22,381 bases of DNA. It comes from a virus. Both the position numbers and the translations under genes were made by a program. This document shows positions 1,723 through 18,102 of this stretch, piece by piece. Under the pieces are notes generated by a model. It was not told where the DNA came from, made no database searches, and was given only the letters and a program-made list of their open reading frames with translations. The stretch covers positions 1-22,381 of the IMG/VR virus record IMGVR_UViG_3300037963_006401; one strand, written 5' to 3'. Every line of letters begins with the position of its first letter. The stretch's first letter is position 1.

Positions 1723-1730
1723 TATTTATG
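1723..1730 (-). promoter_or_regulatory. Candidate T4-type late promoter for the 281-aa gene and gene 15
   Basis: On the minus strand this reads CATAAATA, one base from the T4 late consensus TATAAATA. It overlaps the stop codon of the fibre gene and ends 28 nt before the ATG at 1695, the same spacing as at the two exact boxes elsewhere in the window. The constant spacing is the main support. Confidence 0.5.
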
Positions 1731-4700
1731 CGGCATTTCCTGAAGAAGAAAAACCTTGATCTATACCAGTTAGTAGATCACCAAAGTCTGTTGCATTACC
1801 TGTTGTTTGCGTAGTGATATATTGAATTTGATTACTATATGCATTAACTAGAGTGCCTGAGGCCTCGGTGCGACCGCCAGAAAAACATATTCTTGTTTCA
1901 TTCTCACATGCTCCTGCCATCCACACAGAATTAGCATTATCGGGATTTATATCACCAAAATCTGTGGTATTACCTGTAGTAGCAACAGTTATGTATTCTA
2001 GTTTATTAGACGCAGCTTGATTAGCATAATTAGGCCCTGCATTACCCAATTGACAGACAGCTCTTGTCTCATCTGAAGCAGCTGAACCACGCATACTTCC
2101 TTCTGACATATTACCAAAGCTAGAAGAATTTCCAGGGCTAGCTATTGTAATATATTCTATCGCGTCGTCATAATAGTAAGTGGGCCCTGGATCCTGTACC
2201 TGACCACCCCATATTGTGCCTCGTGTAGCATTACCTGCGCCACTCTGAAAACCTTTAACATTTTGAAGAGAACCAAAACTTGTAGCGTTACCTGTTGTTG
2301 CAATAGTAAAATAATCTATGTCGTCACGATAACCAGTACCAGTAGGGCCGTAAGAAATATAACCGCCCGCAAAAACTGCATAAGTACCATCACCAAGTCC
2401 AGCACCACTTCTAGCAATTTCCAAAGCATTACCAAAGGTTGAAGAATTTCCAGGCACTGCGACAGTGAAATAGTCGTATGATCCCCCAATCGCATTATTA
2501 ACATCACCATCACTTCCATTTCTAGATACAAGAGCTCTAGTTCCGTTTGAAGCAGAATGATCATTATTTGTAGAACTAGAACTGCTGGCTTGACAATCTC
2601 CAAAATCAGAAGCGTTACCAGTAACACTAATATTCCAATAGTCTAATGCAACGGACAGACCAGCCGAACCAGATCCCCTGCGTCCAGCTCTTAATGCTCT
2701 ATTACCACCCCATGGTACTGTAGAAGGAGGTGGAAGTAATGCACTTCTATAATTTCTAATTGTTACATATTCTGTGGCTGGACTAGTAGTCGGATTGTTT
2801 TCTTTAGAGATTAACCAGCCTTTACTAACAGCAAAAGTACTACCGTAATAATTATCTGTCGAAGCTTGACCTTGTAATGATTGTGTATCAAAATTAGTTA
2901 CGTGTGTTGAGCTATCTAACGTATAAGCCATTATACGACCAGCATTAGCATTACCATCGTTATAACCACCATCGTTTGTAAAAATATGATCGCTATCATC
3001 AAATTGCAAGTCATATCCTGGATATGCATTACCTTCAGTTATTTGTGTACTTGATTGTAATGTAAGCGTAGCAAAATCTCTAACCTCAATATAGGCGTTA
3101 TAATTGGGACTGCCAGTAGTTCTGCTAGCATAAACTTTACTATTTTTAATAAATAAATTATTAGGACCACTATTTCCATTTGGAAATGCATTAGTATTAT
3201 TTACGCCTGAAACCCAATTAGTTCCATTATATGAATGTGTTTGAAGTAGTGTTTTAAAATTAGATGCAAGTTTATTTCCTTCAATAGCTACTCCATAACC
3301 AAAATTAAAATAATTACTATAATATGTACCTTGACCATATGTAGTAATCATATTGTCTACTCTAGTACTAGTCCAATTTGCTGGATCAGAATCTGTAATA
3401 TCGAATACTTCTATTGAACCTTGATTATAGTCGCTGTTGGCTCCAGAACCTACATCAGCATGACTCGCGCCTATCGCTAACCAATCATTAGTAGCTGCTA
3501 TTCCACTACCTCCCCAATTTGTACCTCCTGCAACATACGACGGTCCAGAAGCATACATTGTAGACATCATTTTTATTGTTCTAACATGGGTCATATCACT
3601 TAGTCTAATTACACTTACATAAGCATTATTTCCATTACCGTAGAATCCGCTACCATCTTGTCCGTTACCCCAGTTACTTTCACCTGATGAATATGATATG
3701 GGTGCTGTAACAAAAGCATATGTATCATTAATAGCAACACGCTGACCAAAATACATTTTATGATATTTACTAGACGCATATGCGCCATTACCGTTTCTAG
3801 AATATAATTGAGAATCATTAGGAGCATGACCATCTAAAATACTATTGAAAGATGCCATCTCTTTACCGTCTGAATTTCTATAAATCCATGCCCAACCTGG
3901 TTGATTTATGTTTCCTATATTCATTCGTGGATCGCCAACAACCGTATATGTTCCATTAGTTGCTATTCTACCATCATCTGCAAAATCACTACTTAATCCA
4001 CTAGAATTTGCTGGCAATTGAGATAAAATAACACCACCCGACCAATCAGTACCACCCGTAATTGGTGTAATCACATTACCATCACTTGCTTGCGTAGATG
4101 ATGCCATATTACTTGCATTAGATACTGTTACGTTACTTGCTGCATTACTTGACATTGTAGTGAATGCATTTGTTGCCAAAGTTCCTGCAACATCTCCAAG
4201 TGTGCCAGCTGTTAACACAAAGTTATCCGATGTTCCTGCAATTATAGTTGCTGGTAATACAGCAAAAAATGGTTCTACTCCGCTACTACCATCAAAATAC
4301 ATTCCAACTATCACAGCATTTCCATTTTGATCTGGTTTTACGTCTTCTGTATAGTACGATCCTGATCCTGTTGCTGTTACTTCCCATTCTCCAGTTAATG
4401 TGCCTGAAGTATTATAAATTAGAATCGTGTTGTCATCTGTTACAACATATACATCGGTGCCAATTGCTGAAATACCTGTAGAGCCATTAGTTGTTAAATG
4501 ACGTCTTTGCCAAGTTACACTGCCATCTGTTCCTGAAAGTTTTACTACTGGCGTATAATATGTATTTAAATATTCAAAATTATTCCATCCAGTTGTATAA
4601 ACATCATCATTGCTATCTACTGTAACAGCATAAAAAGAGTCACTGTGATATCCGTTTGCTTGAACATCATCATTCAATATTTTTTGCCAAATAATACTAC

Positions 4701-5661
4701 CATCTGTTCCTGACAATTTTACAACAAACCCAGATGAGTATCCACCGCCTGTTATTTGTTCGTGTATTGCTCCTGCTACAATAACATCATTGTTGCTATC
4801 AATTGCAATAGCTCTACCGTTTGATTGCTGACCTGTATGATCTAATTTTTGAATCCATACAATTGCACCTGCAGAATTTAATTTTGCTACAAAAGTATAA
4901 TCATTATTATTTGCTGAGCTATATGAACCGCCTCTCCCAGTTATGTAAAAATTGTCATTGCTATCAATAGCTGTAGCTTGTCCTATCCAGCTACTAGTTC
5001 CGCCATCAGTGAAGACTTTTGTGTAAACCTCTGTTCCGTCAGGTTGATATTTTGTTATTAATGTTGGATACGGTGATCCACCACTGTGACTGTATGTATA
5101 TCCCCCAGTGATAACATTTCCCGAAGTATCTACATGGCTACCAAATATCCTATCTGGCCCGTTGCCTGCATTGGCATGTTTACGTGCCCACTGGAATGTA
5201 CCCGATGAATTATATTTGGCTATCAGTATATTATCATCAACTGCATCGTAACCTGTTGCATAAAAATTGTTACTAGTATCAGTACCGATGCTATAGAATC
5301 TCTCATTTGACATTCCTGTGAAGTTATTTCTTACTATAAATCCGTTAGCAGCTACGCCTCCACCGCCTCCGCCTCCGCCGCCTCCTCCGGCGACAGCAGG
5401 AATTAAAATGTGATTACCCATTCTCAATCCATGAGTGCCGCAATAATAATTTAGATTATTAGGTGCATTTGCAGGCACAACAAAACTAATTGATGCACCA
5501 GATTGACCTTGTGTTCCGGTTAACGTAATGCCATCTGTGTATTCTGTAGCACCACTATCAGCTGTGAATTTTAATGGATGAGTTGATAAGCTAGGATCGC
5601 TTACATCAAAAGTGTAAGTGGAACCTCTTAATAACTTTAATCTTTTATTTTTAATTGCCAT
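1726..5661 (-). CDS. 1311-aa fibre-like protein: cupredoxin, poly-Gly hinge, two middle repeat regions, six-repeat propeller
   Basis: This is a large, probably exported-by-assembly virion protein of receptor-binding type; the exact role is inferred. Residues 1-90 form a cupredoxin-like domain with H28, C74, H77 and M81 at copper-ligand positions. Residues 92-102 are eleven glycines. Residues about 103-470 hold SBBP-like beta-propeller repeats (pattern D-x-x-N-N-x-x-x-TG followed by a KYNSSGTFQW-type strand). Residues about 475-545 are low-complexity and rich in Ala, Ser, Asn and Thr. Residues about 545-975 carry FG-GAP-like repeats such as FGQRVAINDTYAFVTAP. From W984 to the end there are six Kelch-like repeats with the cores DFGDC, TFGNA, SFGSL, SFGNM, DFGDI and DFGDL, ending GNAA. 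The start follows an AGGAAAT ribosome binding site that overlaps the upstream TAG stop. It is the last of five fibre-type genes. Confidence 0.82.
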   Translation of the reverse strand: MAIKNKRLKLLRGSTYTFDVSDPSLSTHPLKFTADSGATEYTDGITLTGTQGQSGASISFVVPANAPNNLNYYCGTHGLRMGNHILIPAVAGGGGGGGGGGGVAANGFIVRNNFTGMSNERFYSIGTDTSNNFYATGYDAVDDNILIAKYNSSGTFQWARKHANAGNGPDRIFGSHVDTSGNVITGGYTYSHSGGSPYPTLITKYQPDGTEVYTKVFTDGGTSSWIGQATAIDSNDNFYITGRGGSYSSANNNDYTFVAKLNSAGAIVWIQKLDHTGQQSNGRAIAIDSNNDVIVAGAIHEQITGGGYSSGFVVKLSGTDGSIIWQKILNDDVQANGYHSDSFYAVTVDSNDDVYTTGWNNFEYLNTYYTPVVKLSGTDGSVTWQRRHLTTNGSTGISAIGTDVYVVTDDNTILIYNTSGTLTGEWEVTATGSGSYYTEDVKPDQNGNAVIVGMYFDGSSGVEPFFAVLPATIIAGTSDNFVLTAGTLGDVAGTLATNAFTTMSSNAASNVTVSNASNMASSTQASDGNVITPITGGTDWSGGVILSQLPANSSGLSSDFADDGRIATNGTYTVVGDPRMNIGNINQPGWAWIYRNSDGKEMASFNSILDGHAPNDSQLYSRNGNGAYASSKYHKMYFGQRVAINDTYAFVTAPISYSSGESNWGNGQDGSGFYGNGNNAYVSVIRLSDMTHVRTIKMMSTMYASGPSYVAGGTNWGGSGIAATNDWLAIGASHADVGSGANSDYNQGSIEVFDITDSDPANWTSTRVDNMITTYGQGTYYSNYFNFGYGVAIEGNKLASNFKTLLQTHSYNGTNWVSGVNNTNAFPNGNSGPNNLFIKNSKVYASRTTGSPNYNAYIEVRDFATLTLQSSTQITEGNAYPGYDLQFDDSDHIFTNDGGYNDGNANAGRIMAYTLDSSTHVTNFDTQSLQGQASTDNYYGSTFAVSKGWLISKENNPTTSPATEYVTIRNYRSALLPPPSTVPWGGNRALRAGRRGSGSAGLSVALDYWNISVTGNASDFGDCQASSSSSTNNDHSASNGTRALVSRNGSDGDVNNAIGGSYDYFTVAVPGNSSTFGNALEIARSGAGLGDGTYAVFAGGYISYGPTGTGYRDDIDYFTIATTGNATSFGSLQNVKGFQSGAGNATRGTIWGGQVQDPGPTYYYDDAIEYITIASPGNSSSFGNMSEGSMRGSAASDETRAVCQLGNAGPNYANQAASNKLEYITVATTGNTTDFGDINPDNANSVWMAGACENETRICFSGGRTEASGTLVNAYSNQIQYITTQTTGNATDFGDLLTGIDQGFSSSGNAA
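1729..2712 (-). repeat. Six-repeat Kelch-like propeller module, copy in the 1311-aa protein
   Basis: The module starts at WGGNRA and holds six degenerate units of about 50 residues. Each unit has the form R-A-x-x-x-GG, then a (D/E)Y-(I/F)-T-(I/V)-x-T-x-GN strand, then (D/S/T)FG-(D/N/S)-x. It ends in GNAA and matches the C-terminal modules of three neighbouring genes. Confidence 0.72.
5356..5388 (-). repeat. Eleven-glycine codon run
   Basis: Eleven consecutive GGN codons, mostly GGA and GGC, encode residues 92-102 of the 1311-aa protein. They lie just after the cupredoxin-like domain and before the first propeller, so they look like a flexible hinge. The triplet repeat is locally much more GC-rich than the surrounding DNA and could change length by whole codons without breaking the frame. 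Confidence 0.9.
5392..5661 (-). repeat. Cupredoxin-like domain, copy 4 (1311-aa protein)
   Basis: About 90 codons shared with three upstream genes. Putative copper ligands are H28 (STHPLKF), C74, H77 and M81 (YYCGTHGLRMGN). The C-x2-H-x3-M loop is intermediate between amicyanin (C-x2-H-x2-M) and plastocyanin (C-x2-H-x4-M). This copy alone has Arg at residue 80, where the others have Gly. Confidence 0.72.
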
Positions 5662-5671
5662 TTTTTATTTC

Positions 5672-6835
5672 CTAGCTAAATTTCCATATCTTATCATCAC
5701 TGAGTGATCCGTAGAATATGCCACTACCGTCAGCCGCTATATCAAAACCCATACCATCATCATCGGTTGTTATAATTTGACCACCTACATTTGTTGTAGC
5801 AAATACAAATGGCGTCGCAAAACTCATCCATGAAATTTTTTCAACAACCCCTGTGGCCTTGTTTGTTTCTTGATACACAAATGTTTTACCATCAGCACTA
5901 ACAACTATACCCCTTATCCAAAGACTAGCGTCAGTAGTAATCCATTGCTTCGAACTCCCAGTATCTATGCTGCTAAGTGACCATGGTGTGTTTAAATTGT
6001 GTATAAAAATTCTACTATGATTTTGAGAAGTTGTAATAAGCTTAGTACCATCAGGTGATAAATGTACACCAGATATACCATTAATAGTAGTGGATCCCAT
6101 TTGACCCATTTGACCATTTCCACTTGTCGTATCTAGAGAATGTGTAAGTGATATGGTACTTGCATCCCAAGGAGTTGAAAGAGTATATTCATTTATTGCA
6201 TCATATCTTCCTTCATATAATTTAGTACCATCTTCGTTAATGTGCATGTCATAAGGTGCCTGTGCACCAGTTCGAGTATAACTAGTTATTGCAGTACTAC
6301 CACTAGTAAGATCAAAAGGTGTAGCTAATGTAAAAATACGGATTACAGGACTTTGATATGGAGTTGCAACAAAATACTTTCCATCTGGTGAAAATTTAAA
6401 TGGACCAGAAGGTGCACCAGGATACCATTCATTAGGCGACTGTAGATTAGTCGATAAGTCTATTGATGTTCCTGTAGTTGGATTATTTGGAAGCAGAGCT
6501 GATAAAGACTGTCCATTTCCATTCCAATCAGTCTCGCTACCATTCCAATAATAAACCGCATTAGGATCATCTATTATTTTTACTTTATTACCCATACCGA
6601 TTCCATGAGTACCGCAATAATACATTAGATTACTCGGAGCATCAATAGGTACAGCAAAAGTAACTGTAGCATTTGCAGAACCAGAATTACCAGCAGCTGT
6701 CACTCCATTAGTATATTCACTTGTACCACTGTCACTTGTAAATTTTAATGGATGTGATGCTAAGCTAGGATCACTTACATCAAATACGTAAGTGCTACCT
6801 CGATGTAATTTTAATTTTGGTCTTTCTATTGCCAT
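5672..6835 (-). CDS. 387-aa fibre-like protein: cupredoxin domain plus WD40/lactonase-like propeller
   Basis: Residues 1-90 are the cupredoxin-like domain (H28, C74, H77, M81). The rest, about residues 130-387, is a beta-propeller built of units such as SPDGTKLITTSQNHSRI followed by LNTPWSLSSID. These are the same 'DGTKLY ... TPWD-x-ST' repeats that fill the 1968-aa protein, where they are much more numerous. This is the only one of the five fibre-type genes without the six-repeat Kelch-like C-terminus and the G-x-AA end; it stops at KIWKFS. It has no signal peptide or membrane segment. The start has an AAGGAAT ribosome binding site overlapping the upstream TAA, with a 10-nt spacer. A role in host binding or tail decoration is inferred from domain type and context. 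Confidence 0.8.
   Translation of the reverse strand: MAIERPKLKLHRGSTYVFDVSDPSLASHPLKFTSDSGTSEYTNGVTAAGNSGSANATVTFAVPIDAPSNLMYYCGTHGIGMGNKVKIIDDPNAVYYWNGSETDWNGNGQSLSALLPNNPTTGTSIDLSTNLQSPNEWYPGAPSGPFKFSPDGKYFVATPYQSPVIRIFTLATPFDLTSGSTAITSYTRTGAQAPYDMHINEDGTKLYEGRYDAINEYTLSTPWDASTISLTHSLDTTSGNGQMGQMGSTTINGISGVHLSPDGTKLITTSQNHSRIFIHNLNTPWSLSSIDTGSSKQWITTDASLWIRGIVVSADGKTFVYQETNKATGVVEKISWMSFATPFVFATTNVGGQIITTDDDGMGFDIAADGSGIFYGSLSDDKIWKFS
6566..6835 (-). repeat. Cupredoxin-like domain, copy 3 (387-aa protein)
   Basis: Same 90-codon unit as in the neighbouring genes. H28 is in ASHPLKF, and C74, H77 and M81 are in YYCGTHGIGMGN. Residue positions of the four candidate copper ligands are identical in all four copies. 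Confidence 0.72.
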
Positions 6836-6845
6836 CTCTTATTCC

Positions 6846-8429
6846 TTAAGCTGCATTGCCTGATGCACCACCAGCATCCATTGTCTTTAATGTTAAATCT
6901 CCAAAATCATAAGCATTTCCTGGAGTTTGAACAACAACTTTATTAATAGTAGTTAATTGAACCATTGAATAAGAAGCCTCTCTACCACCAATAAAGTGTG
7001 TACTTGTTCCATCATTAGCAGTCGCCGAACTATGCATACCTATATCATTTAGGTCTCCAAAATCTGTACCATTACCTGTAGTTTGTATTGTTATGTATTC
7101 AATAACATTTGTATATGCTAAAAGAAATGGAGTAGCTGCTGAAGAATGTTCTTCACCACCTCCAAATATTGCTCTAGTAGTATCACCACCCGCTGCATAA
7201 TTTTTTCGTCCAATATGATAAGCATATGTCGGATCTGTAGCTGTCATTTCACCAAACGTAGCGGCACCAGCTCCTGTTGCTATTGCAAAATATTGATACC
7301 ATCTACTGGCTGTTGAGTTATTTGCAGTACCATCAGCTTGGTTAAAAGGCTTATAAGCGTTATGCGCACCGCCACCTATAACAACTCTAGTTTTATCATT
7401 CCATGCTCCGGCCATTGCTACTGGCCTAGCTAAATCTGTAAAATCTGTAGAATTACCAGGAGTAGCCATAAGTATCGTTTCTACTCTTGTACCTTGTTCT
7501 AAGTCACTGCCATAACCACCCGCTGACTCTACATTAGGAAATGCCATTATAACCATACGATTACCATCACTAGCTGATGTTCCGCCTGATCCTTTATTCA
7601 ATAAATCACCAAAATCTGTACCATTACCTAAAACAGATGGTGTTATGTATTCTATTGTGTTTACTCTAGTACCTGATCCATAGTTATTGGTACCGTGAGT
7701 CCAACCACCAGCACTGACTACCCTAGTACCACTAGATGAAGATGTGAGACTATAATTAGTTTGAGTCATATCGCCAAAGTCTGTAGCATTACCACCAACT
7801 GCCATAGACCAATAATCGATTATATTAGTAGGTCTAGAATTCGGTAAATTTCCAAAGTTATTGGGGTATCCACCTAATCTTAGTCCTCTTGCTCCACCCC
7901 ATGTCAGTGTAGTTTGAATATTAAACACATCACCATGGCCACCGCCATAGAGATAATCGCTATCTATACTAATTGTTATATCACTATCAGTAAAGAAAGA
8001 ATTACTATCTTCATTAGTTGGAGGTACACCCTCATCAACTGCCATAAAATATACTGTTCCGTTACTACCTGTATATAAAGTTCCTGAGGCTGCAGTTACA
8101 TTATAATGACTTCTATAAGCTGATGATAAGAAACTACCATCGCTTTCAGGTATAAATGTTAATGGTGGAATAAAGATATGATTGCCCATACCCATACCGT
8201 GAGTACCACAATAATAATTGAGATTTGTAGGAGCATTATTTGGTACAACAAATGTAATTTCTGCGCCTGCTTGACCTTGAGTTCCTGTTAAAGTTACGCC
8301 ATTCGTATATTCCGTAGAACCACTATCTGCTGTAAACTTAAAAGGATGAGTAGCTAAATCGGCATTACTCACATCAAACGTATACGTCGATCCTCTTAAA
8401 AATTTTAATTTAGGTCTATTCGTTGCCAT
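6846..8429 (-). CDS. 527-aa fibre-like protein: cupredoxin, linker module, six-repeat propeller
   Basis: Residues 1-90 are the cupredoxin-like domain (H28, C74, H77, M81, with an extra M79). Residues about 107-176 are a linker module (VYFMAVDEG ... DYLYGGGHG ... WGG) that is also present in the 1968-aa protein. From W177 the protein has six Kelch-like repeats with cores DFGDM, DFGDL, DFTDL, TFGEM, DFGDL and DFGDL, ending GNAA. There is no signal peptide or membrane segment. The start follows an AGGGAAT ribosome binding site overlapping the upstream TAG, 10 nt away. The architecture suggests a modular receptor-binding or virion decoration protein; the specific role is not shown by the sequence. 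Confidence 0.8.
   Translation of the reverse strand: MATNRPKLKFLRGSTYTFDVSNADLATHPFKFTADSGSTEYTNGVTLTGTQGQAGAEITFVVPNNAPTNLNYYCGTHGMGMGNHIFIPPLTFIPESDGSFLSSAYRSHYNVTAASGTLYTGSNGTVYFMAVDEGVPPTNEDSNSFFTDSDITISIDSDYLYGGGHGDVFNIQTTLTWGGARGLRLGGYPNNFGNLPNSRPTNIIDYWSMAVGGNATDFGDMTQTNYSLTSSSSGTRVVSAGGWTHGTNNYGSGTRVNTIEYITPSVLGNGTDFGDLLNKGSGGTSASDGNRMVIMAFPNVESAGGYGSDLEQGTRVETILMATPGNSTDFTDLARPVAMAGAWNDKTRVVIGGGAHNAYKPFNQADGTANNSTASRWYQYFAIATGAGAATFGEMTATDPTYAYHIGRKNYAAGGDTTRAIFGGGEEHSSAATPFLLAYTNVIEYITIQTTGNGTDFGDLNDIGMHSSATANDGTSTHFIGGREASYSMVQLTTINKVVVQTPGNAYDFGDLTLKTMDAGGASGNAA
6849..7901 (-). repeat. Six-repeat Kelch-like propeller module, copy in the 527-aa protein
   Basis: Runs from WGGARG to GNAA, with six units ending in DFGDM, DFGDL, DFTDL, TFGEM, DFGDL and DFGDL. 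The unit order and module boundaries match the other three copies, although the sequences are diverged. Confidence 0.72.
7902..8111 (-). repeat. Linker module shared with the 1968-aa protein (shorter gene copy)
   Basis: About 70 codons with the pattern VYFMAVDEG, an Asp/Ser-rich stretch, ISIDSDYLYGGGHG and then the WGG that opens the propeller. The 1968-aa protein has VFALAINEG, an Asp/Ser-rich stretch and DDLYGGGYG at the equivalent place. The two are diverged but clearly related. Confidence 0.6.
8160..8429 (-). repeat. Cupredoxin-like domain, copy 2 (527-aa protein)
   Basis: Same unit as its neighbours, with H28 in ATHPFKF and C74, H77 and M81 in YYCGTHGMGMGN. It is closest in the residue 41-65 region to the copy in the 1311-aa protein (both have TLTGTQGQ-x-GA). 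Confidence 0.72.
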
Positions 8430-8439
8430 ATCTTATTCC

Positions 8440-9645
8440 CTACGCTGCATATCCTGATCCAGCTGTTCCATTCAAATGGTTAGTTTCTGTTATTTCACTT
8501 AAGTCAGTAGCATTTCCTGTTGTCTGTATTATAATATATTGATTAGTAACTCCATTTGTACCAGTTCCCCATAAAAGTCCTCTAACATTATTAGATGTAG
8601 CTTGATCACTACCTCTATTGTAACTATTATTAGTTAAGTTACCAAAATCTGTTGAATTGCCTGTTGTATCCATTGTAATATATTGTATTCTATCTGTACC
8701 AGGTTGTGAGCCTTCATAACCGCCCATCCATAATCCTCTTGTTTCATCACTAGTTGAGTTAGGTTCTTGACTATTAGAAGCTAAATTACCAAAGTTTGTA
8801 CTATTTCCTGGAGTGTCTATTGTTATGTATTCTATTCTATTTTGTGGGAATAGTCCAGTAGTATCTGCTCCTCCAGTTAATGCTCTTGTAGCACTATTAC
8901 AGGCTGCTCCGTATCTACCTCTTCCTCCTGATACATCTCCAAAATCAATAGAGTTTCCGGGTGTATCTGGTGTAAAGTACTGTATAGTATCTACTGTAGG
9001 TGGAGTAACACCATATTGATAACCCATCATATGAAAAGCTCTTGATGTATTACCACAACCATTACCTCCATAAGTTAAAGTATCAAGCTCGCCAAAGTCT
9101 ATGGCATTGCCTGGTGTTGCAACTGTAATATAATCTACTGCATTATTAGTATCATTAATTGTAGTACTTCCTGTTTGGCCACCCATAATGAGAACTTTTG
9201 TTCCACTTGATGCAGCGGCTAAATTATTTCTCCCTATAGTTAGATCACCAAAATCTTGAGAATTATTAGTTGTAGTCATATTTAAATAAGATATATCATT
9301 TCTGCGTAGACTTCCTCCATAACCACCAGCGTAAATGGCTCTATCACCACCCCAATATGATGGTACATAATTAGGATCATTTATTGTCTTTAAATGATTT
9401 CCCATTCCTAAACCATGTGTACTACAATAATACATAATATTAGTAGGTGCACTATCAGGTACATTAAATGTAACTGTAGCTCCGGCCTGGCCAGGTGTAC
9501 CAGTAATTGTAACACCATGGGTATATTCGGTTGCTCCACTATCAGCAGTAAATCTCAAAGGATGACCTGCATTACTAGAATCACTCTGGTCAATAACGTA
9601 TGTGTTACCTCTTAGAAATTTTAATTTAGGTCTCTTAATTGCCAT
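8440..9645 (-). CDS. 401-aa fibre-like protein: cupredoxin domain joined directly to a six-repeat propeller
   Basis: This is the minimal form of the family. Residues 1-90 are the cupredoxin-like domain (H28, C74, H77, M81), and W98 opens six Kelch-like repeats with cores DFGDL, DFGEL, DFGDV, NFGNL, DFGNL and DLSEI, ending GYAA. Almost nothing separates the two domains. No signal peptide, membrane segment or enzyme motif is visible beyond the copper-ligand set. The ATG has an AAGGAAT ribosome binding site that overlaps the TAA of the 1968-aa gene, with a 10-nt spacer. It is presumably a virion surface or receptor-binding component by context. Confidence 0.8.
   Translation of the reverse strand: MAIKRPKLKFLRGNTYVIDQSDSSNAGHPLRFTADSGATEYTHGVTITGTPGQAGATVTFNVPDSAPTNIMYYCSTHGLGMGNHLKTINDPNYVPSYWGGDRAIYAGGYGGSLRRNDISYLNMTTTNNSQDFGDLTIGRNNLAAASSGTKVLIMGGQTGSTTINDTNNAVDYITVATPGNAIDFGELDTLTYGGNGCGNTSRAFHMMGYQYGVTPPTVDTIQYFTPDTPGNSIDFGDVSGGRGRYGAACNSATRALTGGADTTGLFPQNRIEYITIDTPGNSTNFGNLASNSQEPNSTSDETRGLWMGGYEGSQPGTDRIQYITMDTTGNSTDFGNLTNNSYNRGSDQATSNNVRGLLWGTGTNGVTNQYIIIQTTGNATDLSEITETNHLNGTAGSGYAA
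8443..9354 (-). repeat. Six-repeat Kelch-like propeller module, copy in the 401-aa protein
   Basis: Runs from WGGDRA to GYAA. The six units carry strands such as VDYITVATPGN and IEYITIDTPGN, each followed by a DFG-type turn. The last unit (DLSEI) is the most degenerate. Confidence 0.72.
9376..9645 (-). repeat. Cupredoxin-like domain, copy 1 (401-aa protein)
   Basis: Same unit as in the three downstream genes. H28 is in AGHPLRF, and C74, H77 and M81 are in YYCSTHGLGMGN. This is the only copy with Ser rather than Gly after the cysteine. Confidence 0.72.
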
Positions 9646-9655
9646 CTTTTATTCC

Positions 9656-12600
9656 TTAAGCCGCATTACCTGAACAAGCACCAGGTTGTTCTCCAGCATT
9701 TATTAAATCACCATGATCAGTTGCTGTAGCTGCACTACTAAAATTAAATCGATCTATATCTACTATATGAGGTGATCCAAAACCACCACCAAAAGTTGCG
9801 TATGTGCCATTTGACGAAGCTCCCATTGCTCTATTTACTCTATTTAAATTTCCAAAGTTAGTAGCATTGCCTGTCGTTTGAATAGTAATAACATCAGTAG
9901 TTGCTAAATTTAAAGAAGAGACATTTTCGTAACCACCTGCAATAAGTGCATGAGTTTTATCTGAAGTGGCTGTAGCATAAGCTCTATTATCTGATAAATT
10001 ACCAAATGTAGTAGATGTTCCAGGCGTAGAAAATGTGAAATACTGAATTAAACTATTATTATTATTGTTAGCAGTGTATCCACCTGCTATTATCATTCTC
10101 GTTTCATCATTTGCACCTGATGTATAACGTGCACCAGTAGCTAAAGTAAATGAACTTGCAGCTGCATTACCTGGAGTAGCAATTGTGATTGTATCTGTAC
10201 TAGTCATTTCTGCCCATGGTGATACACTTTGTTGACCACCTGTGATATATCCTGTTGTTCCGTCTGACGCACCGGCCGGTACGTTTTCTCTTTTGGTAGT
10301 TAGAGAACCAAAATCAGAAGAATTACCAATCGTCGCAAATGTAATATAGTCTATTTGATCAGTTCCATTATAATTATGCTCGCTATTACCTCCAGCATAT
10401 ACACCGTATGTCTTATCAGATACACAAACACCGCCACGTTTACCTGGTCCAAATCCATCTACTTGTCGATGAACATTACCAAAAACTGAAGCATTACCAG
10501 GAGTTGGTATACTAAAATAGTCTATTTTTTCTCCAGGTGTATTACCACCGAAGCCGCCCCACACGACTGCTCTATCTCCACCCCAGGCTATACTAACACC
10601 AGCTTGCAATTGAAATGCATTACCATAACCACCGCCGTATAGATCGTCTTGTGCAATTGAAACTATGTATGCACTATCAGCTGTATAACTACTATCACTA
10701 CTATCAGCTAGTATACCTTCGTTAATTGCTAATGCAAATACGTTACCTGTACTCGCTGTACGTGGGTCATTAGAATATAATAATCCGGTTTCAACAGTAG
10801 AGATAAGATGTGTAGCCGATGATCTAAAGTATGAGTTATCACTATCAGCAGGGAATATGTAAGGTCTATTATTACTATCTTTAGTAAGATCCCAACCAAA
10901 TATTATGTTACCCATAATCGTATTACCTGCAGAGTCAACTTTATTTTGAGCACCTGTATACAACATACCATTAGGTGTAGTTGCAATACCTCCTAGGTCA
11001 GTTGTACTAATATGATTATCACCAGAATCTGGGAAGTAAATTAATTCCCAAGATGCTGAATCGACAGTTTGTAAATCCCAAGCTGTATTTAAATCAAATT
11101 GCCATATTAATCTATTATAGTTACCTGAACCGTAATCAGTTGCCCACATTCTTGTACCAGAATCATTAAAATCAAAATCAAAGAATGCAGTAGCACTTGC
11201 ACCTTTTGTTATTGAATAATCTCTCCAAGATCCAGAATCCCAATTTCTTAGAGAAAATAAATCTGCACTTTCGCCATACCAATTTTCTATTGAATGAACA
11301 TTATATGGTTCAGGTAAATTGTATATTAACATATTATCGGTATAACCAGGATCATACCATATTAGTTTATTACCATTATCCGCAAATCTTGAATGCTTAA
11401 CAAATTGTCCAATATAAGTATTGTGAGTATTCTGCAACCATTGTTGCAATCCTCCATTATTATGCGTGCTTATTTGTGTTTGTAATGGAGTAGTATTGTT
11501 TATAGAATTTAGATCAAATGCTGAATCTAAATAAAATGTTGTCCAATAAGCATATGATGGATTTGTTGAAGTCGATTGATGAACCGTTACTTCAGTACCT
11601 GAATCATTAAACATTAAATCAGAAGTACCTCGTCTACCTGAATAATCAGTTGATCCAACTGTAAACGCATTTGTAGCTTCAGTACCGTTTTTAATACTCA
11701 TACTAGAATCTAATACGGCTGACGTAATGTCATATGAATCAGCTAAATTATAGTAATGAGCTTCAACAAAGTTTGAATTTGTTAAAAATAATTTAGTACC
11801 ATTGTCATGAAATTGAATTCTATCAGGCTGCAAAGACATAAAAGGTGCAATATAACTACTAGAATATTGCGATGGTCTTTCACCAACATCACCAGATATA
11901 ACTTTGTTTGACAATGTACCAGGTGTATATTGCAATGGCACATAGTTTGTATTTTCTAATTTATATTCTACGATACCATTCTGAGTAGTATATGATCCAT
12001 TAATTTTAACACCATCACCGCCAATAAATAAACTTCCTCTCGATTCGTTCCAATGTAAACTCGTCGGAATATTAAATTTTGTTACAGCAAATCGTGTACC
12101 GTTATAAGTAGCAGTTTTTGGATTATATGGAGTAGTCAAAGTTAATTCATATAACCATCTTGAACTTCTACTTAATAACCATACTTTATTACCATAGTCA
12201 TTCATTTCAAAATCACTAAAATTGCTTTCATTAATACCGTGATAGTTATTGATTAATCCTTTTAGATCTTTACCACCCACATAATTAGCTGCCCAACCAG
12301 GTGCAACATATTTGTTAGGATAAGTTGTGTTGTTAGTACCATAACTATAATATCCATCAGCCGAATACTTATCACCCGGTTGTGACCAGACTGCTAATTG
12401 TGCTCCTTTAGATGAACCATAGCCTTTAGAGAATAGTCCGAAATAAGCGCCGCTATTTCCTAACCATCTTATGCATCCTCTAATATCACGAGCATCGACG
12501 TCGCTATCTAAAACAAGATCTAAATCATCAAAATGATATGATATAGTCTGTGCATTATTTGTACTTTGAGTGCTAAATGCTCCAGGAGTTGTTTGTTGAT

Positions 12601-15562
12601 GATACCTTGGAAAATTTTGCATTGCATCAATATTATTAATATTATTCGGATGTATTTTATGTGGAGAATAAAAGCCATGTCCACCACTATAATTTTGATA
12701 TGATGATACAGTATCTTTATAAGGTTCTATAAAACCCATATTTGAATGATGATCCCAACCACTGCCATTCACTCCCCATGTAATAGCAGTTGTATTACTT
12801 GCAGTAGTTTCTATATCGTACGGAGTATTTAATGGGCCGTATTGAATTAGTAAATCATTACCTGACATATACAAATAATTACCATCACCAGTAAACGTAA
12901 AATTAGTTGGAACTGGAACTTGGCTTTCATAATATGTGTATTTTAATTGTGTATAAGCACCTTCACTATCAATCAACGAAATACTATATGGAACTGAACT
13001 ACTCACAGGTGGTGGAGGTGTAACATAATGTGGGCTATTCGGATCAGCCTGTGTGATTTGTTTCCAGGCTGTTAATGAAGAATTAGCCATATAAGCTTCG
13101 GCCCATGCATCAGCACTGTCTGCTTGTACCATAGGCTTGACTGAAATATCTGGATGCGTAATAAAAGATGAACCAGCACTATCTCCAGATGTGCCAAATT
13201 CAACAATATTAAATTGTGATGTACCTGTCCAACCACTATCTACTGGAATATCTTCCATAGTATTAGTCAGTACATATATTTTAGATCCGTCAGGATGCAT
13301 ACCAAATGCACCTCTGATGCCCATCTTAGTAGGTGCACCTGAGTCTGCTCTATTTGTTAATTCTATTTGGCTATGATAACTCATAGTTGATAAATCATAA
13401 GGAGATGATAGATCTGTTCTTAATAGAGTTTTTCTCCAACCATTTAGACCATTACCATAACCTGATGATGAACTATCATAATCAGAATCTGAGAATTGGT
13501 TATGCAAGAAATAACGTCTTGTACCGTCATGGTTAAACATAGAACCTGCAGTAAATGCAAGTTTATATTCAAATTGATTTACATAGCCAGATGAATCTGG
13601 TATATTATTTGTATGATATGTTCGAGAGCTAAGAGTGCCAATATCATATGGAGTAGTAAAAGTTAATTCGTCTACTGGTCCATTAACTCCTAGTTTACCA
13701 ACCGCCATCTTACGACCGCTATCATACCATTCCATAGAATAGGTATTATTTAAATTAGCACTTGAATTAACTGTTACATTATTTTGAGCAACTGTATATC
13801 CATATGGAACTGAACCAACAAGGCCTTTTTCGTAAGTTGCTGTTGTAATATCCCATGAATCAGATAAGTTAAACTGATTTAATATATCTCTATCAGCTTC
13901 AACAACATACATCTTAGTACCGTGTGGATTAAACGCAACCGCACTTAATCTCTGACCACCATAGAATTGATCTGAATCTGCATTTGAATAAAAAGATCTG
14001 GCAAATACTGTACTTAAGTCTGCTCTTTCTTCATCACCGTCTGATATAGAAGATATATCATATGGTGATTCTAGTTTAGCACCGTATACTATTGCACTTG
14101 AATCAGCATAATTTAAATTCGTATAGTATGCTCTTCGACCATTTTCACCAAATACTATATTAGATGGGTCTGAAAGTCCAGGTACATCGGATAAAACAAG
14201 TGGGTAGTTTCTGATATAACTAATAGAACCGATACTAGTACCGAAGTTTGTAGCTGCACTATCCCATACCATAGATGTAGCAGACCTAGAAACTTGAGTA
14301 GAAAATGCCACATCAGTCATAAATCCAGCATCGACACTATCACCCAGTCGTGGTGCTGCACTATCGCCTGGTTGTAGAGCTGAACTAGTTGGAGCTGTTT
14401 CACTAGATGGATTTAATTCATAATTGCCTTCAGGAATACCTAAATGTATAAATCCATCACCTGCTAATGTTAAAGTATCTCCAGCCGTTTGAGGCGTATA
14501 TGTCACTTGTATTGCATCAGTAACACTATCTGTACTATGTGTACTTACGGCAAATCCAGGTATATTTAAATCTCTTACACCTTCAATATAGTTTTTATCA
14601 TCTTCATCAGCAACAAACTGATATGATACACCATTTGCAATAATCTTATATGTTTTAGGAAATACAAATGCAGGATCGCTACTAGCACCTCGAACAGTCA
14701 TTTGAGTTGCTGGCGCAGATGCAACGACTGCGGCCGCAGCTTCTTCTTGAACTATGCTTGCAACTTCTGGTTCACCAAATGGATTTGATTCTGAAAAATC
14801 TAAGAAATCTTGTGTTTCTTCGTTAAACTCGTCTGATACATCTCCAGCGATCTCAGGTCTTGTGACCTTTGTAATTTTACGACTAGCACCTGAGTTAGAA
14901 CCTGTAATTGTAAGTCCTGAACTTGGCTCAACAAAAGTACCGTCATCATTTGCTGTGTGAATTAAAGATAGTGTTTGACTACTTTCTATAAAATTACCAA
15001 CCTCACCACTTACAACTGCTCCATTAGCATCGGCTTGAATCGTTACATCTTCACCACGCTCAAAATTAGTACTTGGAAATGGAGGATCGATAGTAACGAC
15101 AGGTGGATTATCTGAATCATAGAAGTTGCCGCTGTCTGAAACGTTTACTTTTGTAACTGTACCTGTTGCCGAGTCAAATTCTAATGTTACTGCAGCCGCA
15201 AAGTCTGTTTTAGGATCAGTAGACTTTGCAATTGTAACTGTAGGAGTTGTCGAATAACCTGAACCTGGATTTGTAATCGTAACGCCTGTAACTTCACCAT
15301 TCGAAATTTGTGCAGTACCTGTTGCTTGTACACCACCAGAATCTGGTGCACTTAAAGTAACAGCTGGAGGCGTTGAATAAAAATTACCACCACTATCTAG
15401 ATTAACAGAATTTACTGTACCATTTACGTTTAGAGCCGCCGTTCCCTGAGCTTCTTGCTTAGGAGCAGCTGGCGGTGAAATGGTTACCGCAGGTTTTTCA
15501 GTATATTGATCACCAGGACTTGTTACACTAACTCGACGTAATCTTTTCCATCTATGAGACAT
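9656..15562 (-). CDS. 1968-aa giant fibre-like virion protein with N-terminal repeats and two kinds of beta-propeller
   Basis: Residues 1-165 contain about four repeats of the form V-x-x-V-x-x-x-x-x-G-x-x-Y-x-x-PP-x-VTI, a pattern common in marine phage fibre proteins. Residues about 165-275 hold a 'GxF ... GLTITGSNSGASRK' type linker and an acidic segment. From about 470 to 1590 there are many WD40/lactonase-like units, each with a DGTKMY-type turn and a (S/T)P(Y/W)D(I/L)-x-(S/T) turn; at least nine of the latter can be counted. A linker module precedes W1660, which opens six Kelch-like repeats ending GNAA. It lacks the cupredoxin-like domain of its neighbours. The start overlaps the gene 14 stop as TAATG, so translation is coupled to the neck gene. 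It may be a neck- or tail-attached fibre; this is inference. Confidence 0.82.
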   Translation of the reverse strand: MSHRWKRLRRVSVTSPGDQYTEKPAVTISPPAAPKQEAQGTAALNVNGTVNSVNLDSGGNFYSTPPAVTLSAPDSGGVQATGTAQISNGEVTGVTITNPGSGYSTTPTVTIAKSTDPKTDFAAAVTLEFDSATGTVTKVNVSDSGNFYDSDNPPVVTIDPPFPSTNFERGEDVTIQADANGAVVSGEVGNFIESSQTLSLIHTANDDGTFVEPSSGLTITGSNSGASRKITKVTRPEIAGDVSDEFNEETQDFLDFSESNPFGEPEVASIVQEEAAAAVVASAPATQMTVRGASSDPAFVFPKTYKIIANGVSYQFVADEDDKNYIEGVRDLNIPGFAVSTHSTDSVTDAIQVTYTPQTAGDTLTLAGDGFIHLGIPEGNYELNPSSETAPTSSALQPGDSAAPRLGDSVDAGFMTDVAFSTQVSRSATSMVWDSAATNFGTSIGSISYIRNYPLVLSDVPGLSDPSNIVFGENGRRAYYTNLNYADSSAIVYGAKLESPYDISSISDGDEERADLSTVFARSFYSNADSDQFYGGQRLSAVAFNPHGTKMYVVEADRDILNQFNLSDSWDITTATYEKGLVGSVPYGYTVAQNNVTVNSSANLNNTYSMEWYDSGRKMAVGKLGVNGPVDELTFTTPYDIGTLSSRTYHTNNIPDSSGYVNQFEYKLAFTAGSMFNHDGTRRYFLHNQFSDSDYDSSSSGYGNGLNGWRKTLLRTDLSSPYDLSTMSYHSQIELTNRADSGAPTKMGIRGAFGMHPDGSKIYVLTNTMEDIPVDSGWTGTSQFNIVEFGTSGDSAGSSFITHPDISVKPMVQADSADAWAEAYMANSSLTAWKQITQADPNSPHYVTPPPPVSSSVPYSISLIDSEGAYTQLKYTYYESQVPVPTNFTFTGDGNYLYMSGNDLLIQYGPLNTPYDIETTASNTTAITWGVNGSGWDHHSNMGFIEPYKDTVSSYQNYSGGHGFYSPHKIHPNNINNIDAMQNFPRYHQQTTPGAFSTQSTNNAQTISYHFDDLDLVLDSDVDARDIRGCIRWLGNSGAYFGLFSKGYGSSKGAQLAVWSQPGDKYSADGYYSYGTNNTTYPNKYVAPGWAANYVGGKDLKGLINNYHGINESNFSDFEMNDYGNKVWLLSRSSRWLYELTLTTPYNPKTATYNGTRFAVTKFNIPTSLHWNESRGSLFIGGDGVKINGSYTTQNGIVEYKLENTNYVPLQYTPGTLSNKVISGDVGERPSQYSSSYIAPFMSLQPDRIQFHDNGTKLFLTNSNFVEAHYYNLADSYDITSAVLDSSMSIKNGTEATNAFTVGSTDYSGRRGTSDLMFNDSGTEVTVHQSTSTNPSYAYWTTFYLDSAFDLNSINNTTPLQTQISTHNNGGLQQWLQNTHNTYIGQFVKHSRFADNGNKLIWYDPGYTDNMLIYNLPEPYNVHSIENWYGESADLFSLRNWDSGSWRDYSITKGASATAFFDFDFNDSGTRMWATDYGSGNYNRLIWQFDLNTAWDLQTVDSASWELIYFPDSGDNHISTTDLGGIATTPNGMLYTGAQNKVDSAGNTIMGNIIFGWDLTKDSNNRPYIFPADSDNSYFRSSATHLISTVETGLLYSNDPRTASTGNVFALAINEGILADSSDSSYTADSAYIVSIAQDDLYGGGYGNAFQLQAGVSIAWGGDRAVVWGGFGGNTPGEKIDYFSIPTPGNASVFGNVHRQVDGFGPGKRGGVCVSDKTYGVYAGGNSEHNYNGTDQIDYITFATIGNSSDFGSLTTKRENVPAGASDGTTGYITGGQQSVSPWAEMTSTDTITIATPGNAAASSFTLATGARYTSGANDETRMIIAGGYTANNNNNSLIQYFTFSTPGTSTTFGNLSDNRAYATATSDKTHALIAGGYENVSSLNLATTDVITIQTTGNATNFGNLNRVNRAMGASSNGTYATFGGGFGSPHIVDIDRFNFSSAATATDHGDLINAGEQPGACSGNAA
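9659..10585 (-). repeat. Six-repeat Kelch-like propeller module, copy in the 1968-aa protein
   Basis: Runs from WGGDRA to GNAA with six units (VFGNV, DFGSL, SSFTL, TFGNL, NFGNL, DHGDL). It is the same C-terminal module as in three of the four cupredoxin-bearing proteins, although the N-terminus of this protein is unrelated to theirs. Confidence 0.72.
10586..10811 (-). repeat. Linker module shared with the 527-aa protein (giant gene copy)
   Basis: About 75 codons containing VFALAINEG, an Asp/Ser-rich stretch and DDLYGGGYG, placed directly before the WGG of the six-repeat propeller. It matches the linker at 7902-8111 in pattern and position. Confidence 0.6.
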
Positions 15563-16155
15563 TAATCAAGCTCCACTTTAGCTGCCGCAGTAATACCCTG
15601 CGTGAGTGTTAACTCATATCTAAATGCTGCGTCTTGTTCTAGTTGTGTAATGGCATCATTATTAACATCAAAGTCTTCATCATTGTATTCGAATAATTCG
15701 CATTGTAATTTAAATACTGGTAGGTTATTTAATTGATAAAAAGGTTGCTCATGCTCAACATGCATGATTTGAAATATTTTCTTTGAGAATGGCGTAAAAA
15801 CTAAATCGCCCTCGAGAGGACGAATACCTTGAATCTCATTATCATATCTCATAACGGTTTGTTGCCATCTACGCTTAGCAACAGTAAATGTAACTTGGTC
15901 TCTTATTTCAACACCAAATTTTGTAAATAGATCTCCTTCACCATCGAAGCCATCGATGTTGTCTACATACATTTCTAACAAATAATTAGAATTAAATTTT
16001 GATACAGGATCTTCTCTGAAAACATCGTCAACATTCACTAAATCACGTGGCAAATAATATAAGTCTTGTCCATATATTTTAATGGACTCTATAATTAAAT
16101 CTTCATATAAATTCTGTTCAGACCTTGCACCAGCACTGAAATAAAGATTTCGCAT
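15562..16155 (-). CDS. 14: Neck protein (T4 gp14-like)
   Basis: This 197-aa protein is a head completion/neck component; in T4, gp14 joins gp13 to close the packaged head and receive the tail. The N-terminus has NLYFSAGARSEQNLYEDLI and IYGQDLYYLPR, features seen in gp14 of marine T4-like phages, followed by VEIRDQVTFTVAKRRW (about residues 82-97) and a LEGDLVFTPF-like segment (here PLEGDLVFTPF, about 113-123). It is shorter than T4 gp14 (256 aa). The ATG lies 4 nt after the gene 13 stop, with an AGGA ribosome binding site overlapping that stop. Its own stop overlaps the 1968-aa gene start. Confidence 0.87.
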   Translation of the reverse strand: MRNLYFSAGARSEQNLYEDLIIESIKIYGQDLYYLPRDLVNVDDVFREDPVSKFNSNYLLEMYVDNIDGFDGEGDLFTKFGVEIRDQVTFTVAKRRWQQTVMRYDNEIQGIRPLEGDLVFTPFSKKIFQIMHVEHEQPFYQLNNLPVFKLQCELFEYNDEDFDVNNDAITQLEQDAAFRYELTLTQGITAAAKVELD

Positions 16156-16159
16156 ATTC

Positions 16160-16912
16160 TTATCCTATGAAAAACGATACTGGGTCTTCGTGTTCTAGTC
16201 TTAACTCCTCTTGCAATCGTAAAATTTCTTGAGTTGCCGCTTCATATATAGCATCGCCGTTCATTGTGACACCGCCAGGAAGTTGCATTCCTGAGAACTT
16301 CATTAAGTTTGACCCCCATTGTTGTTTTATCAACTGAGTGCCATATAGCTTTAACCATTTGTCATTCCATACACTATTATGTGCTGCTTCATCTATTTTT
16401 ATTAAAGCTTCAATTACAACGTATTTATTTTCTTTGAGTGTTTCATCTTCGAAATCACCGTGAATATAAACCCGTTGCTGATGATATGAATAATCGTGTT
16501 GAGGATGACCATTTAATGTCATATCTAACAATTGTGTATATTGTTGTATCTGACTAAAATATCCAACGTCTCCAAGGAATGATGTCATGTTTGTAATGTC
16601 ATGAAGCATCAATTGATACTTAACGTCAAACATGGTTGACCCTTGGCTAGAGATCATAAATGGCAAGACTCTCTTAACTTGTAGGACATTTGCTGGCATG
16701 GCTATATACTTATTTGTAATATCAGTTGCTGTTAACTGATGCTTAATATAAGTACGTAACATTGAATCGTTGTGATATTCTCTGTAATACTCTAAAGCTT
16801 GATCTACTCGATCATCTATCTGATCTTCGTCTACATTTATTTCTATTACAGGATCGCCTAGTGCTCTTTTGCAATAGTCGATATAAGTATCTCTTGTTGT
16901 TGGAATGGCCAT
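16160..16912 (-). CDS. 13: Neck protein (T4 gp13-like)
   Basis: This 250-aa head completion protein matches gp13 of marine T4-like phages. The best evidence is the N-terminal segment TRDTYIDYCKRALGDPVIEI, then NVDEDQIDDRVDQALEYYRE (about residues 26-45), which is highly typical of the family. T4 gp13 is longer (309 aa). The gp13-gp14 pair is in T4 order and direction. The ATG at 16912 has an AGGAT ribosome binding site with a 6-nt gap and an exact late promoter box 29 nt upstream, so this gene probably leads the late transcript for the neck and fibre genes. Confidence 0.88.
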   Translation of the reverse strand: MAIPTTRDTYIDYCKRALGDPVIEINVDEDQIDDRVDQALEYYREYHNDSMLRTYIKHQLTATDITNKYIAMPANVLQVKRVLPFMISSQGSTMFDVKYQLMLHDITNMTSFLGDVGYFSQIQQYTQLLDMTLNGHPQHDYSYHQQRVYIHGDFEDETLKENKYVVIEALIKIDEAAHNSVWNDKWLKLYGTQLIKQQWGSNLMKFSGMQLPGGVTMNGDAIYEAATQEILRLQEELRLEHEDPVSFFIG

Positions 16913-16957: not shown

Positions 16958-17512
16958 TTATCTAAAAGCTGGCCCTTCTATCCAAGTTACAAAAGATTTT
17001 CGTGTTCCTGCTGTTACAGGTTCCACTTTATGCCTTATAAAAGATGGGAATGCAAAGACTGTACCTTTCTTTCTCATTAAATCTTTGGGTGGTTGAACAT
17101 ATTGTGGATCAATAAGAAAGTCTCCGCCTTCATATTCATCGCCATCTGTTAATTGAATAATTACAGATATTTTTCTATCATATAAAGTTAGCTTATTATC
17201 CCAAAATATATCAACGTGCCAATCATAATGGCCATGATCCTCATGATGATATCGAGTATGCTGTACATCTTCCATATAATTAATATCAAAATTCCATAGA
17301 GCTCTATTAGCAACTTTGGCATATTCCATCATTTTATTTTTTATGAGATCGTCTTTTACCCATCTAATTTGACTACGTCTCATTTGGTCTTTTTTACTTT
17401 TATTTCCTTGACCAATTACTGCATCTATTAATGGATATTGTTCTGCGATGTAATTATATTCATCTACATTATTTTCTTCCATGCGATCCCACATCATCCA
17501 CATGTCTTTCAT
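16958..17512 (-). CDS. 2-oxoglutarate/Fe(II) oxygenase, prolyl-4-hydroxylase (PKHD) type
   Basis: This 184-aa protein has the double-stranded beta-helix motifs of the P4Hc/PiuC-like family, which hydroxylate peptide or small-molecule substrates using 2OG, O2 and Fe(II). The iron triad is H99-x-D101 (in YDWHVDIFW) and H151 (in FPSFIRHKVEPV). R161 is placed to bind the 2OG carboxylate (AGTRKSFVTW). The YEGGDFLI segment (about residues 117-124) is typical of the family. The N-terminal 60 residues are charged and unassigned. The start overlaps the upstream oxygenase stop as TAATG, so the two are coupled. Such genes are common in marine T4-like phages, and the substrate is unknown. Confidence 0.82.
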   Translation of the reverse strand: MKDMWMMWDRMEENNVDEYNYIAEQYPLIDAVIGQGNKSKKDQMRRSQIRWVKDDLIKNKMMEYAKVANRALWNFDINYMEDVQHTRYHHEDHGHYDWHVDIFWDNKLTLYDRKISVIIQLTDGDEYEGGDFLIDPQYVQPPKDLMRKKGTVFAFPSFIRHKVEPVTAGTRKSFVTWIEGPAFR

Positions 17513-18057
17513 TAATCTTTTCTCCTAATAAGCATAATATCTAATGGTAATGCAATACGTAATCCTGAGTAAAAAGGATTTACCGAATGATATAAAAATG
17601 AGGGAAATATAACAACATCATCTGTTTTAGGCAATATCACTTTATCTTCAAAGTGTTTTGCAAAGTTTTCATCATATCCACGATTTGCATTATGTCTTGG
17701 ATCATGGAATCTAATTTCACCGCCTGAATCATTTTCTTCGGCCAATACATAAAACACAGAAGAAAACATTGCACCCATATGATTATGGAATGGGTGTACA
17801 TATCCGTCTTTTGGTGATATAAGCCATCCTTTTATTTCGGTATGGTACGTGTCAATATCTACACCATAACATCTATTGATATAGCTTTTAAAATTATCAT
17901 AAGCTATTTGTTTTAATAAATTAATAGGTTTACTATCTTCATCAAGTATGTTATAATTGATCTTAGAAGTGTCAGAATATGTGAGTATATAATCTAATAA
18001 ACCTTCAACATGTGACTTTTTGTGTTCAATTGGTGTAGCCCAAGCGTTGTGTATCAT
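17512..18057 (-). CDS. 2-oxoglutarate/Fe(II) oxygenase, TIGR02466-like type
   Basis: This 181-aa protein resembles the putative 2OG-Fe(II) oxygenases of the TIGR02466/2OG-FeII_Oxy_5 kind. It has H91-N-H93 (in HPFHNHMGAMFSS) where other subfamilies have HxD, then SGGEIRFHDPR (about residues 101-111), the distal H147 (FPSFLYHSVNP) and R157. I chose the ATG at 18057 because TGAGGT lies 5-8 nt upstream; an in-frame ATG at 18117 would add 20 residues but would run across the opposing promoter and the start of the cupin gene. It is the first gene of the leftward group, coupled to a second, distinct oxygenase. The substrate is unknown. Confidence 0.78.
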   Translation of the reverse strand: MIHNAWATPIEHKKSHVEGLLDYILTYSDTSKINYNILDEDSKPINLLKQIAYDNFKSYINRCYGVDIDTYHTEIKGWLISPKDGYVHPFHNHMGAMFSSVFYVLAEENDSGGEIRFHDPRHNANRGYDENFAKHFEDKVILPKTDDVVIFPSFLYHSVNPFYSGLRIALPLDIMLIRRKD

Positions 18058-18068
18058 TTGAACCTCAT

Positions 18069-18076
18069 TATAAATA
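18069..18076 (+). promoter_or_regulatory. T4-type late promoter for the cupin and radical SAM operon
   Basis: Exact TATAAATA on the plus strand, 27 nt before the cupin ATG, in the 45-bp gap between the divergent gene groups. It implies late expression of the whole overlapping radical SAM run, as no other promoter gap exists in it. Confidence 0.7.
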
Positions 18077-18083
18077 ACAGTAC

Positions 18084-18091
18084 TATCTATA
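18084..18091 (-). promoter_or_regulatory. Candidate late promoter for the tandem 2OG oxygenases
   Basis: TATAGATA on the minus strand, one base from the late consensus and 27 nt before the oxygenase ATG at 18057. It faces the plus-strand box at 18069-18076, so each polymerase would start by crossing the other's promoter. Confidence 0.42.
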
Positions 18092-18102
18092 AGGGAAATA
18101 AA

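Follow-up and report, generated by a model that had tools for sequence, protein, structure and literature searches.

The DNA analyzed here, referred to as the window, is a 22,381-base virus record from IMG/VR (IMGVR_UViG_3300037963_006401) whose minus strand carries four consecutive open reading frames (1726-5661, 5672-6835, 6846-8429, and 8440-9645), coding for proteins of 1311, 387, 527, and 401 amino acids. Each of these proteins opens with a copy of the same domain, of ca. 88 residues, that we interpret with moderate confidence, from its sequence and a predicted structure, as a type-1-like metal-binding module of cupredoxin fold, probably holding copper, on virion proteins of a T4-like marine myovirus that end in a C-terminal propeller. 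Copper appears to be the likely metal.

The domain and the conservation of its ligands

As stated in the initial annotation, translation of the four genes places H28, C74, H77, and M81 at identical positions in all four domains, the last three within a loop that reads YYC-x2-H-x3-M; C74 is the sole cysteine of the 387- and 527-residue proteins. The order His, Cys, His, and (usually) Met, with the last three spaced as Cys-x2-4-His-x2-4-Met, is the one used to recognize cupredoxins. All copies lie on the minus strand. In the 401-residue protein, for which the domain is backed by a structural model, residues 1 to 88 span 9382-9645, with H28 at 9562-9564, C74 at 9424-9426, H77 at 9415-9417, and M81 at 9403-9405. 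The domain occupies 8166-8429 in the 527-residue protein (H28 8346-8348, C74 8208-8210, H77 8199-8201, and M81 8187-8189) and 5398-5661 in the 1311-residue protein (H28 5578-5580, C74 5440-5442, H77 5431-5433, and M81 5419-5421). The copy of the 387-residue protein, at 6572-6835 (H28 6752-6754, C74 6614-6616, H77 6605-6607, and M81 6593-6595), matches over the domain PHROG 677, a baseplate/tail-fibre connector (expect value, E, 2.3e-15). Since these four copies are paralogues (61 to 75% amino acid identity over residues 1-88), they are not four independent observations, and their agreement alone is weak evidence. However, their third codon positions are only 45 to 59% identical, with synonymous positions near saturation, so that the duplications must be old and the ligand residues have been retained by selection.

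Conservation beyond the window was assessed with a query restricted to residues 1-69, i.e., without the Cys-His-Met loop. Every one of the 64 aligned sequences (the copies from the window included) had H28, C74, and H77, and 62 had M81; H28 was slightly favored because one of the six search patterns contained it. We then masked the ligand columns (all four) of a profile and ran it against all the fetched loci, which gave 107 nonredundant copies (<80% identity). H28 and the CxxH motif occurred together in 92 of them and were both missing in 14, while one copy had H28 only (H77 is intact there, but Gly stands in for C74) and none had CxxH only (Fisher test, 1e-16, a value that ignores relatedness). 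The initial annotation had regarded free variation of the Cys, His, and Met among homologues as evidence against its claim; what we found is that H28 and CxxH are kept or lost together. The spacing between the second His and the Met was of two residues in 49 copies and three in 41, values that type 1 copper loops also cover. Exactly one cysteine was found in 91 of the 92 ligand-bearing copies and none at all in 13 of the 15 others. With a single cysteine per domain, an intradomain disulphide was ruled out. It should be noted that the ligands are not the only highly conserved columns (the others are Y16, G13, G49, Y72, F18, G82, and G52, plausibly core and turn positions); the telling point is their loss as a set.

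To follow these losses we used a tree of 127 rows, built without the ligand columns and with the bacterial copies included. The site was lost in seven clades, and in each of them both halves, H28 and CxxH, were gone. Independent pairs on supported branches were concordant in four out of four cases (an earlier tree without cellular copies had provided only three supported pairs). One large ligand-free subfamily (loci L281-L360), found in giant virion proteins of cyanophages, illustrates the disappearance of the whole set, with YFLSF...YYFDP in place of the ligand-bearing segments. Retention or loss of the site as a whole is well supported.

Fold comparison and cellular relatives

The domain was modeled by AlphaFold2 with a 56-sequence alignment, resulting in a sandwich of seven strands with a mean predicted local distance difference test (pLDDT) score of 94.2. 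In this model, H28 is located between strands 2 and 3, just before the strand formed by residues 30-33, C74 at the end of the penultimate strand (69-74), and M81 early in the last one (78-88). Plastocyanin has the same arrangement of ligands and strands, and the strand assignment of the model (DSSP) indicates that the predicted ligands sit at cupredoxin positions. Structural comparison by VIA-align returned cupredoxin-fold chains in ca. 39 of the top 50 rows, among them the purple cupredoxin of Nitrosopumilus (5fc9, Z 6.2 over 79 residues), the plastocyanins 1bxu and 2gim (Z 5.5), and the N-terminal cupredoxin region of the Hyphomicrobium nitrite reductase (22 to 24% identity). The rows also included AcoP, laccases, and many second domains of nitrite reductases, which have no type 1 site. 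By profile alignment (hhalign), the family was weakly matched when only three or four cellular sequences were used, so a deeper set was built from 26 plastocyanin/pseudoazurin-like sequences of bacterial genomes. With it, the alignment reached an E of 1.2e-4 and a score of 27.7 (200 column shuffles had a mean of 10.8, a standard deviation of 2.4, and a maximum of 20.4), and H28, C74, H77, and M81 all fell opposite the known cupredoxin ligands. This register, the conservation, the concerted loss, and the placement in the model all favor the cupredoxin-like domain with a complete ligand set that had been proposed from the window alone.

The phage domain resembles plastocyanin, pseudoazurin, and amicyanin (PF00127) in being a single domain (of ca. 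90 to 100 residues in these proteins) with the order His...Cys-x2-His-xn-Met, the first His before an internal strand and the Cys-His-Met between the last two. It differs from them in scoring below the PF00127 cut-off, in its H-x3-M or H-x2-M spacing, in having HP rather than HN after the first His, and in belonging to virion proteins assembled in the cytoplasm that have no export signal. The Nitrosopumilus maritimus cupredoxin is likewise a small single-domain protein, but it shares only 16% identity with the phage domain and is a secreted archaeal redox protein.

Members of the same family are also found in cells. A scan of the GTDB genomes recovered 22 loci with the domain, several of them on contigs carrying typical bacterial genes. 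In the SAR86 order 39 of 121 genomes had a match, and in the OCS155 order 7 of 42. Several of the SAR86 matches are proteins of ca. 180 residues in which a lipobox is followed by just one domain that has all the ligands, and those of the OCS155 order are short exported proteins. Unlike the phage proteins, these lipoproteins (H...C-x2-H-x2-M) are free-standing products of cellular genes. In all seven SAR86 loci examined (L186, L424-L427, L429, and L433), the lipoprotein gene is followed by that of a large exported protein (997 residues in L186), for which no Pfam or PDB match was found. A GMC oxidoreductase gene adjoins the exported relative in two OCS155-order genomes (loci L416, L420, and L179). 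Within a giant SAR86 protein (L423), Gln takes the position of the Met, and Gln is a natural axial ligand in stellacyanins. The export of these relatives, which is the setting where cupredoxins normally occur, and their full ligand set support the copper reading.

Several results weigh against assigning the domain to the copper-binding cupredoxins. Foldseek with the domain model gave no match in the PDB below an E of 1e-3, and the VIA-align Z scores are middling (6.6 at most), with dystroglycan Ig-like chains (6.2 to 6.6) equalling the cupredoxins. Because of this tie, the fold comparison is not decisive on its own: of the proposed likeness to plastocyanin, the ligand placement in a confident model stands, while the overall similarity does not set cupredoxins apart. 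No Pfam family was assigned to the domain at cut-off; only 5 of the 56 members matched PF00127 (Copper-bind), the best with an E of 0.013, and P0001 reached 13.8 bits where 21.2 are required. Nor did Pfam, PHROGs, or NCBIfam give any cupredoxin assignment above cut-off, and sequence searches of the PDB found no significant relative, the top hits being antibody V domains and SUMO fragments matched through YYC or other short stretches. In two phage copies out of the 64 of the loop-blind search, the Met is replaced by Lys. The sign test on the supported branches (p 0.125) had four pairs, too few for significance. Large virion proteins still contain copies without the ligands, so the metal is not needed for the fold or for the placement of the domain. 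Finally, an adaptor role of this N-terminal module is based only on its position and on PHROG names.

Alternative readings and proposed role

Ligand-free copies are common in the giant tail proteins, and this fact, the tie with Ig-like chains, and the general knowledge that virions assemble in a copper-poor cytoplasm would all suit an adhesive sandwich, cupredoxin-like or Ig-like, that holds no metal in the virion and keeps the loop for packing, oligomer contacts, or by descent, as in the metal-free ephrins. We consider it unlikely, given that H28 and CxxH, ca. 46 residues apart, have been kept or lost together across the seven clades, while the Met spacing shifts by one. Such joint loss is the coupling expected for a metal site. 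In the same direction, the SAR86 protein L428 has one domain intact and another in which Asn, Ser, and Ala replace the His, Cys, and His.

If a metal is bound, it could also be zinc, in a structural site within a cupredoxin-like fold. A Cys-His-His-Met set is able to bind Zn(II), and cytoplasmic over-expression is known to yield type 1 sites that contain zinc; the cytoplasm is also where the phage is assembled. However, the ligands follow the order and spacing of blue copper loops, zinc is seldom bound by Met or Gln, and the export of the bacterial relatives suggests a setting outside the cytoplasm in which copper is accessible. We regard a zinc site as quite unlikely.

A different question is whether copper, once bound, would act in host contact, either by redox chemistry at the cell surface or as a bait for host copper uptake, similarly to what has been proposed for tail iron. 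Both the iron of the HxH motifs in the T4 tail fibre and a Trojan horse idea have been described (PMC11705849). The domain is located on tail and baseplate proteins, and the GMC oxidoreductase gene next to the exported relative in some OCS155-group genomes suggests a redox setting. Still, from what we know of type 1 sites, the metal is buried and not easily released, and we found no partner, no electron acceptor, and no evidence for a direct redox or bait role, so this function seems very unlikely. The T4 gp37-type sites (PMC11705849) resemble our proposal in placing a metal on a phage tail protein, but there paired histidines coordinate octahedral iron at the trimer axis, with another fold and other ligands; direct reading of the four domains of the window revealed no HxH motif.

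An immunoglobulin V-type domain marked by the YYC motif, with the copper set arising by chance, has next to no probability and was rejected: PDB sequence searches do return Ig V domains through YYC and Ig-like domains are common on phage virions, but 91 of the 92 copies lack the second cysteine of the cross-sandwich disulphide, Ig domains have nothing that corresponds to the conserved H28, H77, and M81, and the profile alignment to cupredoxins is significant.

According to the type-1-like reading that we favor, each domain would hold one metal ion at the loop end, in a His-Cys-His-Met site. We infer copper rather than zinc. The virion would be assembled in a copper-poor cytoplasm and the ion acquired afterward, from the periplasm or from seawater. 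It would lock the loop end of the sandwich, with no redox chemistry involved, and the domain would work as a conserved N-terminal module joining diverse receptor-binding propellers, presumably facing the host, to the baseplate or tail. In azurin, copper binding alters the mechanical unfolding pathway of the fold (PMC5792602), which makes a locking role in a tail part plausible.

Propellers, neighboring genes, and distribution

The initial annotation had called the four proteins fibre-type, a description that does not hold for the 401-residue one. AlphaFold2 predicts for its full length (31 strands in all) the N-terminal domain followed by a propeller, and thus the protein modeled is not a fibre. 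The predicted propeller, six-bladed and of kelch type, corresponds to residues 101-401 (8443-9345, minus strand), and VIA-align superimposed it on Keap1 and the designed SAKe six-bladed kelch propellers with a Z of ca. 36 over 286 residues and a root mean square deviation of 2.3. The similarity to Keap1 is one of fold, with ca. 12% identity, and the phage protein is viral. Homologues of this propeller form the C termini of three other proteins, all on the minus strand: in the 527-residue protein, the C-terminal part (6849-8165) belongs to a sequence that has 36% identity to the 401-residue one over 364 residues (E 2e-43, N-terminal domain counted in); in the 1311-residue protein, residues 979-1311 (1729-2727) have 37% identity to the same propeller (E 7e-38); and in the neighboring protein of 1968 residues, which has no cupredoxin-like domain, the C terminus (9659-10864) has 34% identity to the 527-residue protein over 458 residues. 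The C-terminal part of the 387-residue protein (5675-6571, minus strand) is probably a propeller of another type, with WD40/PD40-like repeats, as suggested by sub-threshold matches to PD40 (E 7e-4) and WD40 (E 0.019). The 1311-, 527-, and 1968-residue proteins all end in SGNAA and the 401-residue one in GSGYAA, endings also seen in many IMG/VR homologues, that are perhaps the closing strand of the propeller.

The flanking genes are T4-like and include a tail sheath stabiliser (53-841, PHROG 227), a neck protein of 197 residues (15562-16155, minus strand, PF11649 and PHROG 460), and a head-tail adaptor (16160-16912, PHROG 211). The neck protein Hc2 (PHROG 460) looks split within 9656-16155 (minus strand), with the 197-residue gene covering positions 18-209 of the profile and the N-terminal region of the 1968-residue protein covering 228-377, so that part of the neck protein seems to be fused to this giant propeller protein. 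Further along, at 18521-21472 on the plus strand, there are three radical SAM proteins in a row, all of PHROG 1802, adjoining two 2OG-Fe(II) oxygenases and a cupin-like protein (with 16958-18117, minus strand, and 18022-18585, plus strand). This group is possibly a cassette for peptide or metabolite modification.

The domain was matched by tblastn in 221 of 50,697 phage records, mostly from phages of Synechococcus and Prochlorococcus but also from methylophages and pelagiphages. In IMG/VR, which was scanned twice, 176 and 188 stretches with the domain were confirmed. There can be several matches per phage (six in P-HM1 and four each in S-SSM4 and S-ShM2), in proteins annotated as tail fibre, baseplate wedge, baseplate-tail fibre connector, or other virion structural proteins. 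The PHROG tail families 677, 30742, and 693 include the domain, with the fold unnamed and no annotation as metal binding or cupredoxin, and none of the plasmid records searched carries it. In the literature searched, to which most subscription papers and all preprints did not belong, we found no paper that links phage tails to a cupredoxin, to plastocyanin, or to type 1 copper, and the domain family has no earlier description there.

We suggest only tentatively that true type 1 copper domains, shared with as yet unnamed exported cuproproteins of bacteria, occur on the tail and baseplate proteins of several groups of marine phages (T4-like cyanophages, methylophages, and pelagiphages), and that their virions bear copper that matters for the assembly or stability of the tail or for host contact. 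If the sites are occupied, each copy of the domain would contribute one copper to the tails of abundant marine phages; unlike iron, this metal has so far not been considered for phage structure. The family lends itself to experiment, as the domains are small and soluble, the cofactor would be coloured, and natural site-less copies could serve as controls. The assignment, if true, would place an unannotated module of more than 200 sequenced phages in a named fold and add a new cuproprotein family to the SAR86 and OCS155-group bacteria.

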